Below are positions 12,328 to 54,367 of a DNA stretch of 64,000 bases, piece by piece. Source of the stretch: Pirellulimonas nuda (GTDB taxonomy: Bacteria > Planctomycetota > Planctomycetia > Pirellulales > Lacipirellulaceae); the NCBI RefSeq assembly GCF_007750855.1, contig NZ_CP036291.1, forward strand, positions 4,030,001 to 4,094,000. Direction: 5' to 3'. The notes under the pieces are model-generated. The model had not been told where the DNA came from, ran no database searches, and saw only the letters and a list, made by a program, of their open reading frames with translations. How positions within the stretch are numbered: position 1 is the first letter of the stretch; each line of letters opens with the position of its first letter. The position numbers and the translations under genes are program-made.

Positions 12328-14304
12328 CTAGCGGTCGACTGGCGCTTCGTTCTGCAACCGGATCGCCTCGCCGTCACCCACCAGCCGGATGTTGGGGGCC
12401 GGGGGCGTGTTCATGCCGTCTCCCAGGTAGAAGCCCGGGTAGCAGGGCCGGTTGTAGACCACGTTCTGCCACACCAGCCCCAGTCGGTATTGGGGGTCGT
12501 GCAGCAAGGTCCTCAAGCGGATGTCGGTGGGGATTGTCGTGGTGTAGAGCCGCAGGGCGTTGCCGTCCGGAGCAGTGAGCAGCAGCTCTTCCCGCCAGTC
12601 GCCGATCAGGTCGCCCGCCAGGTTTGGTCGCCCCGTAGACGACACGCCGTTGAGCTCTGCGAGTGGTCGATCTTGCTTAGAACTCCAATCCCACTTGAAC
12701 ACTTGGGTCGGCCAGCCATCGGCCCGATCGCCCCCCCGTCGCCCCGGTCCGCCACGCCACGCCGGACGCCCAACGGCCAGCAGCTCGCGCAGCGGGTCGC
12801 CGTCCCACCAGAGTGACCACCCGCCGGCGCGCGGCGCGGGGCCAATCGATTTTCCGTCCGAGTCTCGCAGCCCCCCTGGCCCACCCCACGCTTCGAACCC
12901 GCGGTGCGTGGGGTCGATGTCGGCAGCCATCCCGCCCCCTACGTCCACCGTCGGGCTGTGGCTCCAGAGGATCTTGCCGGTCCGCGCGTCGCGCATCGCG
13001 GCGCCCGGGGTTTGGAACTGCTCGGCGTGCTCTTCGTTCTCTTGCACCGAGAAGACCTCCATCCCGGGGCGGTCGGGGTACATGTCGGTGATAAACATCG
13101 CGTCCCCATGACGCAGTCCGGTGGAGTAGAGCCCCCGCCCGTCGTCGTCGACCACCATCGCCTGGTAGACGATCTCGTCCTTGCCGTCGTCGTCGACGTC
13201 GGCCACAGAAAGGGAGTGTCCCCCCATGCCCGAGTAAGGAGAGGCGTCTGTGTACGGGGCGCGGCCGACGCCCGTGTCGAACGTCCAGCGGAGGGTCAGC
13301 TCGCCGTCCCGCCAGTCCCAAGCGGCCATCACGATCCGTCCATAGACCCCGCGGCACATCACCACGCTGGGACGTTGGCCGTCGACGTAGGCCACGCACG
13401 CCAGGAAGCGGTCGCAGCGGTTTCCGTAGCTGTCGTTGCCGGCGTTGCCGCCGATCCCCCCCCAGCCGTTGATCGGGTCGCGTCCCGGCACGTAGCCCAC
13501 CGTCTTGAGCGCGGCGCCGGTCCGCCCGTCGAAGATCGTGAAGTACTCCGGTCCGTCGAGCACGCGTCCGTCCCGCTGTGACCCCGGCTGCAGGGTGCGC
13601 CAGTCTTTCTCACCGTCGCCGATCACTACCCCCACGCCGTCGGTGGCGCCGTCGGCCGTCTTGCAAGCCACTTCTGCGCGGCCGTCGCCGTCCAGGTCGT
13701 ACACCATGAACTGCGTGTAGTGCTCTCCCTCGCGGATGTTCCTGCCCAGGTCGATGCGCCACAGCCGCGTGCCGTCGAGCCGGTACGCGTCGAGGACCGG
13801 GGTCCCCGTCACGCCCGTCGATCCGTTGTCGCGACCCCGCGAGGACTGGTGCAGCACGACGTCGAGCCGCCCGTCGCCGTCGAGGTCGGCCGCTGAGGCG
13901 TCACCCGGTCGGTACCCGGCGATGGGGTCGATGGGGATCTCTAGGAACCCTTGCTGCCAGACCGCCACCGCTTTGCAGGGCGCTAGCTCGCGGCCATCGA
14001 GCACCGGCCGCACTGCGTAGGACAACGACGCGTCGTTGGGGGCAGCTGCGTCGACCAGGTTGGTGGCGCCCGCTACCGGCCCGTCGTTGACGCGTTGGGC
14101 GTCGCCCCCGCTGGTCTGCCGATACACGTTGAACGCCACCCCTTCGGGGTCGGTCCCCAGCAGCCGCCAACCAACGTAGACGCCCGCGTTGGGTTGACGG
14201 ACCGCCACGACCCCGCGCGTCAGGTTCTCCATCTGACGCTGCGCGCCGACGGGCGTCGGCGCTAGCGCCAAGAGGATCAGAAGCGCAATGTGCCGGCGTT
14301 GCAT
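12328..14304 (-). CDS. PL11 rhamnogalacturonan lyase, secreted
   Basis: A 658-residue protein with a cleavable signal peptide (LLILLALAPTPVGAQ, about residues 8-22). It starts with the PL11 hallmark MENLTRGVVAVRQP and then YVGWRLLGTDPEGVAFNVYR. Propeller calcium-loop repeats are seen as DLDGDGRLDVVLHQSS, DLDGDGRAEVACKTADG and DVDDDGKDEIVYQAM. Unlike the PL11 at 6465 it lacks the DNRLRE domain, the dockerin-like repeats and the LEPR-XLL motif, so it is probably periplasmic and acts on imported oligosaccharides; this division of labour is an inference. It lies 57 bases downstream of the GH51 gene on the same strand and converges on GH106 with a 20-base gap. Confidence 0.9.
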   Translation of the reverse strand: MQRRHIALLILLALAPTPVGAQRQMENLTRGVVAVRQPNAGVYVGWRLLGTDPEGVAFNVYRQTSGGDAQRVNDGPVAGATNLVDAAAPNDASLSYAVRPVLDGRELAPCKAVAVWQQGFLEIPIDPIAGYRPGDASAADLDGDGRLDVVLHQSSRGRDNGSTGVTGTPVLDAYRLDGTRLWRIDLGRNIREGEHYTQFMVYDLDGDGRAEVACKTADGATDGVGVVIGDGEKDWRTLQPGSQRDGRVLDGPEYFTIFDGRTGAALKTVGYVPGRDPINGWGGIGGNAGNDSYGNRCDRFLACVAYVDGQRPSVVMCRGVYGRIVMAAWDWRDGELTLRWTFDTGVGRAPYTDASPYSGMGGHSLSVADVDDDGKDEIVYQAMVVDDDGRGLYSTGLRHGDAMFITDMYPDRPGMEVFSVQENEEHAEQFQTPGAAMRDARTGKILWSHSPTVDVGGGMAADIDPTHRGFEAWGGPGGLRDSDGKSIGPAPRAGGWSLWWDGDPLRELLAVGRPAWRGGPGRRGGDRADGWPTQVFKWDWSSKQDRPLAELNGVSSTGRPNLAGDLIGDWREELLLTAPDGNALRLYTTTIPTDIRLRTLLHDPQYRLGLVWQNVVYNRPCYPGFYLGDGMNTPPAPNIRLVGDGEAIRLQNEAPVDR

Positions 14305-14361
14305 AACGACTGACTCGGGGGAACGGGGGGAAGCGCTGCCGCCGCGGGGCTGGTCGCTGCC

Positions 14362-15948
14362 TCACTTCTTCTCGTCCAGCTCCAGCACCAGCACCGACCG
14401 CGGCGGCGCCTCGACCACAAGCTCCCCGTCTGCCAGCGAAGCCCCGTCAAACTCCCGGGGCGTGAGCCGGTCGGGCGACTCGAACGTGTTGTGCGCGTCG
14501 AGCCGCTGGGCGGTGAGCACCCTCCCACGCACGGCGCCCGCGTCGACCCCGGAGAGCCGGCAGCGGAGCTTCACCGGCGCCTTGGCGTCGACGTTCACGA
14601 TCGATACGTGCACCTTGCCGGCGTCGTCCCGCGACGCCGAGACGCTCAGCGCCGGCATCGACTCGCCCCCAAAAGCGTAGTCGGGCGACGTGAGTTCGAG
14701 CGGGAGCCGCGTGGCGTCGTGGTGGACCTTGAACATCTCGAACACGTGGTAGGTGGGGGTGCGGAGCATCTTGTCCCCCTCGGTGAGGATCATGGCCTGC
14801 AGCACGTTCACCACCTGGGCGATGTTGGCCATGTGGATGCGGTCGTTGTGCTCGTGGAACATGTGCAACGACATCCCCGCCAGCAGCGCGTCGCGCAGCG
14901 AGTTCTGCTGGTAGAGGCCGTAGTCGGGCGCGCCGGGCTCCGTGCGGTACCAGGCGCCCCACTCGTCGACGAACAGGCCGATCCGTTTCTTGGGGTCGAC
15001 GCGGTCCATCTCTTCCTCGGTCACGCGGATAGCGTGCTCGATGCCCAGCGACTCTTTGAGGATCGCGAACCACTTCTCTTCCCCGAAGCCGGTGGCCGGG
15101 AGCTTGTCGCCCCACGGCGCGGCGAGCGTGTACTGGTGCAGCGAAAGCCCCTGCGTCCGCCCCCCTACCCGCTGCATCACCACGCGGCTCCAGTTGCGGT
15201 CCGCCCCGTTCGGGCCGCAGGCGATCCGCACCAGGCGGTTGCCGCTGTACTCGTGGCAGAAGGTGGCGTACCGGCGGTATAGGTCGCTGTAGTACTCGGG
15301 CGTCATCTGGCCGCCGCAGCCCCAGTTCTCGTTCCCGATCCCGAAGTATTTCACTTTCCACGGCTTCTCGCGGCCGTTGGCGCGGCGGAGGTTGGCAAGC
15401 TGGCTGTCGCCATCGAACGTCATGTACTCGATCCAGTCCCGCATCTCCTCGGGCGTGCCGCTCCCCACGTTGCCGGCGATGTACGGGTCGGCGCCCAGCA
15501 GCTCGCACAGGTCGAGGAACTCGTGCGTGCCGAACGCGTTCGTGTCGATCACCTTGCCCCAGTGCAGGTTGACCCGCTTGGGCCGCTGGTCCAGCGGCCC
15601 GATGCCGTCGCGCCAGTGGTAGTCGTCCGCGAAGCAGCCGCCGGGCCAGCGGAGGTTCGGGATGTCGATCGCCTTGAGCGCCTCGACGATGTCGGTGCGG
15701 TAGCCATGCGTGTTGGGGACCGCGGAGTCTTCCCCCACCCAGATGCCGTCGTAGATGCACCGACCGAGGTGCTCGGCGAAGTGTCCGTACAGGTGGCGGC
15801 TGATCTTGCCGCCGTCTTGATCGCCGTGGATCTCCCCGACCGCGTCGCCGGCCCGCACGCCGCTGGCGACGCAAAGCGCGAGCAGCCCGGCCAGACACAG
15901 GGTGGATCGATGAATCAAAGGAGAACGAGGGTCTCTTGCGATTGACAT
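14362..15948 (-). CDS. GH51 alpha-L-arabinofuranosidase, secreted
   Basis: A 528-residue protein with a signal peptide (about residues 13-33). The GH51 barrel is recognisable by [19 protein letters not shown] and [20 protein letters not shown]. The expected acid/base is Glu207 in [11 protein letters not shown] and the nucleophile Glu329 in [13 protein letters not shown]-terminal beta-domain follows. The enzyme would remove arabinofuranosyl residues from arabinan or arabinogalactan side chains of RG-I, and it is probably co-transcribed with the PL11 gene immediately downstream. Confidence 0.92.
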
Positions 15949-16274: not shown

Positions 16275-16577
16275 GGGTTTTGTCCTTTTGTCCCATGCCC
16301 CGATTGGTTTTTTGGCCTCATGGCTGCTTGAGTCGCGGGCGCCCTGCTTGCGCCGCAACGACTTACGACGACGCTCGGGGGGCGTCGGCCGCTCGGCAGC
16401 GGACAAAACGACCCGCAGAGCGGACACCAGCCCCCCTCTAGCGGACACCTCAGGGACAAAATCCTGCGCCCCCTCCGGCCGCGGGGTGTGCGCGCAGCGT
16501 CCCCGCACGGCCCCCGGCAAGAGAGGTCGGAATCGCTGCTGATTATCGCGGCGAGGGTGGCTAAAAGCGAGGCAAAA
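16275..16577 (+). repeat. GGACA/TGTCC intergenic element, copy A
   Basis: This is a ~303-base non-coding element with a second copy at 54056-54367. It begins with TTTTGTCCTTTTGTCCC, carries GCAACGACTTACG 74 bases after the first TGTCC, then three AGCGGACA boxes at 16398, 16419 and 16440 (exact 21-base steps), then GGGACAAAATCC, and ends with GGGTGGCTAAAAGCGAG at 16555. The opening TTTTGTCC and closing GGACAAAA are inverted with respect to each other and could pair. The element stops 47 bases from the stop codon of the minus-strand gene at 16625. The function is unknown. The rest of the 15949-16624 gap shows nothing else I can support beyond the GH51 leader. Confidence 0.75.
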
Positions 16578-54055: not shown

Positions 54056-54367
54056 GGGTTGTGTCCTTTTGTCCCCCTGCCGGGCCAACGGTTTTCGGAC
54101 AAAACCCCACCCTCACCACGTCGACGGCCCAACGGGCAACGACTTACGTCAACCTCCCTCGCCCGCGCCGCCGTCAGAGCGGACAAACCGCGCCCCGCAG
54201 CGGACACCCCGGGCCCCCAGCGGACACAAGCAGGACAAAACCCCGCGCCCCCCGCCGCCCGCCCGGCCCGCGGTGCCGGCGCGCAGCGGCGCCCACTCGG
54301 CCACCCCAACGGGGAGGCCGATCGCGGGTCTATTTTCCTAGATGGGGTGGCTAAAAGCGAGCGAAAA
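54056..54367 (+). repeat. GGACA/TGTCC intergenic element, copy B
   Basis: This is the second copy of the element at 16275-16577, about 312 bases long. It has TGTCCTTTTGTCCC at 54062, GCAACGACTTACG at 54136 (again 74 bases after the first TGTCC), AGCGGACA boxes at 54178, 54199 and 54219, AGGACAAAACCCC after them, and the same end GGGTGGCTAAAAGCGAG at 54345. An additional CGGACAAAACCCC lies at 54096. As in copy A it lies 58 bases beyond the stop of a minus-strand gene (54426) and upstream of another minus-strand gene. The rest of 53875-54425 shows no coding sequence. Confidence 0.75.

Follow-up and report, generated by a model that had tools for sequence, protein, structure and literature searches.

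In the window, a 64,000-nucleotide stretch of the single 6,618,662-base chromosome of Pirellulimonas nuda, we analysed two intergenic elements, designated copies A and B, which share a common set of parts (Table 1). Each copy starts with a left end carrying two TGTCC boxes, continues with a K motif and a right array of GGACA boxes, and closes with a right end that resembles the promoter/operator of a terminase-small-subunit-like (TerS) gene. The same window holds a group of pectin-degradation genes (658-31503 and 12328-15948), encoding pectate-lyase-like, rhamnogalacturonan lyase, alpha-L-rhamnosidase, arabinofuranosidase and fructuronate reductase-like proteins.

Table 1. Features of copies A and B, with positions in the window
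Feature	Positions	Strand	Remarks
Copy A, whole element	16275..16577	+	as drawn in the first-pass annotation
Copy A, left end	16275..16293	+	GGGTTTTGTCCTTTTGTCC; two TGTCC boxes 8 bp apart, starting at 16281 and 16289
Copy A, K motif	16355..16367	+	GCAACGACTTACG; minority motif
Copy A, right array	16398..16461	+	GGACA at 16401, 16422, 16443, 16454 (21/21/11); AGCGGACA at 16398, 16419, 16440; GGACAAAA at 16454
Copy A, right end, putative TerS-type promoter/operator	16537..16574	-	leftward into the array (TCGCTTTTAGCCACC ... GATAAT); GTGGCTAAAAGCGA at 16557
Copy B, whole element	54056..54367	+	
Copy B, left end	54056..54074	+	TGTCC at 54062 and 54070
Copy B, inverted H box	54092..54109	+	TTTTCGGACAAAACCCC; TTTTCGGACAAAA at 54097
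Copy B, K motif	54136..54148	+	GCAACGACTTACG
Copy B, right array	54178..54240	+	GGACA at 54181, 54202, 54222, 54233 (21/20/11); AGCGGACA at 54178, 54199, 54219; GGACAAAA at 54233
Copy B, right end, putative TerS-type promoter/operator	54327..54364	-	best matrix site of the window (training promoters from other genera); GTGGCTAAAAGCGA at 54347

The landmarks reported for the two copies in the first-pass annotation were all found again at the spacings given there, with the K motif offset by 74 bases in both copies and the array boxes spaced by 21/21 bases in A and 21/20 bases in B. The sequence GTGGCTAAAAGCGA had no other match in the window at up to one mismatch (0.07 expected), and all seven occurrences of TTTTGTCC or its complement in the window fell within copies A and B (0.76 expected). 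The layout had been described as fixed, and this was correct for the order and spacing of these landmarks, but the inverted TTTTCGGACAAAA box of copy B is missing from copy A. Likewise, GCAACGACTTACG is indeed a landmark shared by A and B, but it occurs in only ∼8-9 copies of the whole family.

That A and B belong to a larger family became evident from searches of the complete chromosome. With copy A as the query, blastn identified 19 places. A search for the core AGCGGACACCTCNGGGACAAAA (≤3 mismatches) yielded 54 genome sites as opposed to 1 for a reversed control, the left pattern TTTTGTCCN{0,2}TTTGTCC yielded 37 as opposed to 0, and the right-module pattern yielded 59 as opposed to 9. These three patterns mostly converged on the same loci, and joining their matches gave at least 63 dispersed copies in the 6.6-Mb chromosome, a minimum because the count comes from matches to patterns. 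There are many more elements than the two originally noticed, and A and B are not a pair produced by one recent duplication. When the core pattern was applied to 60 related genomes, no matches above chance were obtained and the array was absent there. The right-hand module is kept in other genomes as a promoter (see below). When the left-module pattern was run against 84,980 species genomes and viral contigs, all hits proved to be unrelated arrays that arose by chance or belong to phages, and none of these few hits was an insertion sequence with the layout of A and B. In the literature searched, neither the repeat nor dispersed solo TerS genes nor the head cluster dealt with below turned out to be described.

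Taking A and B in their + orientation as the reference, the family consensus begins at a sharp boundary, GAGTTTTGTCC-TTTTGTCC, with conservation setting in 6 bp ahead of the first TGTCC. The H box lies 27-28 bp beyond the left boxes in inverted orientation and reads (TTTTC or AAAAT)CGGACAAAACCCC, and a minority of copies carry the K motif GYAACGACTTACG. The right array has two to seven GGACA boxes and mostly closes with AGCGGACACCTCNGGGACAAAA. Beyond it, past a stretch that varies among copies, come S ([CG]ATTRTC) and E (GTGGCTATTTGCGAG), with a spacing from S to E of exactly 16 bp in 30 out of 30 copies. In about a dozen copies, E is inverted and lies farther out. The copy near genome position 447899 has an array expanded to as many as seven 11-bp units (AxCGGACACCT).

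The boxes were proposed to be under selection, and our alignments support this idea. Within layout classes, the identity of boxes amounted to 0.95-0.99, whereas ungapped spacers reached only 0.36-0.51, so that boxes were kept while spacers diverged. The copies were located mainly via their core boxes, and conservation of the core boxes is therefore partly ascertained. The left TGTCC boxes, however, played no part in ascertaining the 53 copies retrieved through the core, and both of them are kept in 47 of these. With respect to flanking genes, 19 copies lie between co-oriented genes, 12 between genes co-oriented the other way, 16 between divergent genes and 10 between convergent genes. The occurrence of all four arrangements speaks against the proposed 3′-UTR element. 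A position as promoter of the neighbouring gene was also rejected, as the gene arrangement is not fixed.

The first-pass suggestion of a transposase-less mobile element is supported by the dispersal of at least 63 copies. In the copy pair at 5868083 and 6293473, homology is limited to the span between the element ends; in two other pairs it begins at the left end and extends beyond the right end. The elements resemble MITEs in being short, non-autonomous, intergenic and dispersed, with a few relatives that still have a gene. A classical MITE of an unrecognised transposase, with the arrays serving as subterminal binding sites comparable to the TnsB-site arrays of Tn7, would account for the sharp left boundary, for dispersal as a unit and for the inversion of left relative to right boxes. 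However, the true ends, GAGTTTTGTCC on the left and GTGGCTATTTGCGAG... on the right, are not inverted copies of each other, and no 2-9 bp k-mer was consistently common to the flanks of 35 copies, as a target-site duplication would be. No parent transposon was seen, nor was there a transposase inside any fetched copy, two of which enclose an ORF encoding only an HTH protein. The results of the searches in relatives and elsewhere, as well as the predicted gene promoter at the right end, also count against a classical MITE, and we consider it quite improbable. As a separate observation, a 98-100% identical repeat is present 280-770 bp to the right of four copies (near 2431852, 4558418, 6402282 and 4932253), and this repeat contains a putative IS110-like transposase, as judged by eye.

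The spacing of the boxes proved to follow the helical repeat of DNA. Measured from the H box, the first right box occupies rungs ∼10.5 bp apart (76-78, 84-85, 93-96, 103-106, 115-118, 125-127 and 136-137 bp), with R = 0.82 for n = 44 copies and R = 0.69 (p = 5e-5) if only distinct values are counted. As this interval has no intact box, the gain or loss of 11-bp units should not shape the distances. Relative to the last GGACA, the boxes are positioned at 0, -11, -21, -31/32, -42, -52/53 and onward, and the H box at -106, -116, -127, -136, -148 and -158. For the distance from the H box to the last box, R was 0.78 (n = 41), and a free period scan had its maximum at 10.5. The left TGTCC boxes are phased too (R = 0.74). 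Accordingly, the right array of copy A shares its helical phase with the left boxes, and in copy B the H box is 27 bp away from the second TGTCC and 84 bp, or 8 turns, away from the first right box. For six control pentamers, phasing within these same copies was weak (R 0.09-0.25). Helical phase, near-random spacers and the weak phasing of the controls together argue that the element acts as DNA, probably as an array bound by protein on one face, and not as a folded RNA. This bears out the earlier proposal of a putative protein-binding array with helical-turn spacing, and the phasing is the strongest argument for action at the DNA level. Moreover, the A/T tracts of H and E swap strands among copies (TTTT versus AAAA), as expected if such exchanges are tolerated by DNA shape and not by RNA pairing.

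Conceivably, the boxes could instead belong to a structured RNA, either a small RNA or a leader, held together by pairing of TTTTGTCC with GGACAAAA. The boxes are complementary, the fold z-scores of copies A and B are -1.6 and -1.5, and the putative right-end promoter may transcribe the array leftward. Over both strands of 36 copies, however, the mean z was only ∼-0.87, that is, folding slightly better than in shuffles, with 11-17% of the copies below -2. In addition, as many as eight GGACA boxes stand opposite just two left boxes, an Rfam scan of the window gave no match, and the 10.5-bp phasing and the TTTT/AAAA swaps fit DNA. The folded small RNA that had been considered for A and B is thus very improbable. 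An array of the OmpR/PhoB type was considered for the 11-bp direct repeats and rejected: 10 out of 57 copies have convergent genes on either side, and the left pair is 8-9 bp apart in opposite orientation, in contrast to the uniform 11-bp head-to-tail arrangement of such arrays.

The nature of the right end was assessed with a weight matrix derived from 14 TerS-like promoters, all from other genera and none from the own genome. Scored over ∼128,000 window positions, this matrix gave 16.6 for copy B, 12.9 for copy A and 7.5 for the next site. Since B and A rank at the top of a matrix that contains no own-genome sites, the link with TerS promoters is independent of the GGACA boxes. The shared right end is thus predicted to be the promoter/operator of a TerS gene. 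Indeed, the two copies at 5868083 and 6293473 contain an HTH ORF of 100 aa between the array and the right end, on the opposite strand, which starts ∼40 bp after GAYAAT. The two ORFs are 71% identical to each other, with a dN/dS of 0.32-0.45, and a third homologue is located at 844 kb in the same genome. The element-borne ORF and its homologues match the profile of the terminase small subunit PHROG 4102 (7e-6 for the own-genome ORF, 1.4e-14 for a relative and 1.3e-9 for the TerS of the own head cluster). In related genera, the TerS-like homologues are longer and occur as dispersed multicopy genes, with up to 8-10 per genome. In both own-genome ORFs the HTH is retained, whereas the WRAAAWLLER segment (second domain) of these relatives is missing, and ring formation by the element-borne proteins is therefore doubtful. 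No relatives of the TerS-like protein were detected in 50,697 phage records or in viral contigs.

Most solo TerS-like homologues have the same motif upstream, in some cases as an inverted repeat GGTGGCC...GGGCCACC, and the two orientations of E may reflect retention of either half of such a repeat. The terminal GAGTTTTG/CAAAACTC motif recurs beside TerS-like genes of other genera at 7 of 44 loci, and no phased GGACA arrays were observed in the 3′ regions of such genes that were inspected. Two further observations concern the solo genes. The 3′ flanks of solo TerS-like genes from a different family (genome G047) also contain the K motif of A and B (GACTTACGTCGA), and eight ∼1.4-kb segments at different places in genome G022, 83-93% identical, each carry a solo TerS-like gene and a palindrome mosaic.

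Outside the window, at C1:383229-395390, the own genome contains a compact phage-head and packaging cluster. It comprises genes for a small protein, a trypsin-like protease, a 279-aa protein, a ParB-like protein, an ABC-GNAT protein, TerS, TerL, the portal, a protein of unknown function, a cement protein and the capsid, and no tail genes were seen beside it. Within the 20-kb region that holds the cluster, the best matrix hit was TTGTAGAAAGTAGCCACCCACCCTGCTAAAAAACACG, ∼140-175 bp ahead of the first gene. With matrices that excluded the scanned genome, the operator motif was found ahead of the cluster in most relatives. Synteny of the cluster was observed in the 16 loci inspected in other genera, some of which end at contig ends, and 49 of 60 relatives have TerL, almost always as a single gene. 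From this mostly single-copy TerL and the synteny, we infer that the cluster was probably inherited vertically. Its conserved, single-copy head and packaging genes are a feature looked for in gene transfer agents (GTAs), which makes the cluster a candidate for a GTA-like system.

Solo genes and cluster have the same operator type within a genome, namely GGGCCGGC in G047, AACCAGGCC in G016, AAATGGCC in G013 and TAGCCACC in the own genome. The identity between solo and cluster operator cores was 0.827 within genomes, compared to 0.685 ± 0.026 when shuffled (p = 5e-5). This excess argues for one trans-acting factor, and part of the co-variation may stem from common descent and not from a shared regulator. 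A matrix built from the cluster promoters alone was weaker, ranking B 2nd and A 83rd among 127,926 window positions.

An explanation other than a derivative of a mobile gene would be a domesticated, BIME-like architectural or regulatory array through which a host nucleoid or regulatory protein loops intergenic DNA. In this view, the TerS-type promoter would be a relic, or else an operator of the cluster regulator that is titrated by the 60-odd copies. The helical phasing, the conservation of boxes over near-saturated spacers, the intergenic location in every gene arrangement, and an operator that is conserved and co-varies with that of the cluster would all suit such a role. REP/BIME elements and their RAYT transposases are also comparable in that they involve many intergenic, species-specific copies with repeated protein-binding modules. 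What sets our elements apart is a promoter module and a helical phase maintained over long distances; copy A has no REP-type palindrome, and B has one imperfect 16-nt inverted pair. Furthermore, lineage restriction and movement as a unit resemble a selfish element, and even spacing along the chromosome is absent (CV 0.89 versus 0.98 for random placement). We regard domestication of this kind as rather unlikely.

The explanation that we favour, with a probability of roughly two in three, is that the repeat derives from a mobile solo-TerS gene as a non-autonomous, MITE-like element and carries an array for a TerS-like or related protein. Points that weigh against this reading are the lack of phased GGACA arrays in the inspected 3′ regions of TerS-like genes of other genera, the missing second domain of the own-genome ORFs, the lack of target-site duplications and of a transposase within a copy, the low rank of copy A under the matrix from cluster promoters, and the partial ascertainment of core-box conservation. 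The identity of the element and its action at the DNA level are the part that we hold to be highly probable. That TerS itself binds the array is a tentative assignment, the main alternative being a host or cluster regulator. Such an origin would be unusual for a dispersed non-autonomous repeat. Copies A and B are lineage-specific dispersed elements that would descend from a mobile gene for a solo TerS-like HTH protein. Their right end would be the promoter/operator of that gene, directed leftward. It would formerly have driven the HTH gene, which would have been lost from nearly all copies, and would still do so in the two copies where the gene survives between promoter and array. The two TGTCC boxes and inverted H on the left and the GGACA boxes on the right, all in one helical phase, would be gripped by an HTH protein from one face, and the left and right groups would be joined by looping or wrapping. 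Such binding may have spread the copies and may maintain them. On this view, the remnant of a viral packaging system would have populated the chromosome with sites to which it binds itself.

By analogy with the TerS-binding sites SPP1 pac and lambda cosB, the array may act as a packaging site of the pac/cosB type or as a regulatory loop site. What these sites have in common with the elements is the HTH protein family (PHROG 4102), boxes that are short and follow each other at about one helical turn, and left and right groups bridged by bendable DNA. Adjacent HTHs in TerS rings are spaced by about one turn of B-DNA (PMC4737164), which fits the phasing of the array. The differences are that the elements lie away from terL, that 60-odd copies are dispersed without a phage, and that the HTH proteins are short and their binding putative. 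A more specific version, which we deem unlikely, is that the arrays are chromosomal pac-like packaging starts for the vertically inherited phage-derived cluster, that copy-bearing segments are preferentially packaged and spread without a transposase, and that the solo TerS genes are the autonomous drivers. If this were true, the elements would spread by gene-transfer drive, and the solo TerS genes do share the operator of the cluster. Phage-inducible chromosomal islands and GTAs are similar in having a TerS homologue under the type of control seen for the head and packaging cluster, but the elements are ∼0.3 kb long and lack integrase and replication genes. The link between a TerS-like protein and a head cluster makes it testable whether GTA-like packaging has been kept and whether it is exploited by selfish elements. 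Irrespective of this, a phase held over seven rungs within one genome represents a natural experiment on DNA looping. Finally, a dense array of GGACAAGCG/GGACAAA boxes, unrelated to the elements, was encountered between phage-like genes on a contig of Metarhizobium album and also on an IMG/VR contig.
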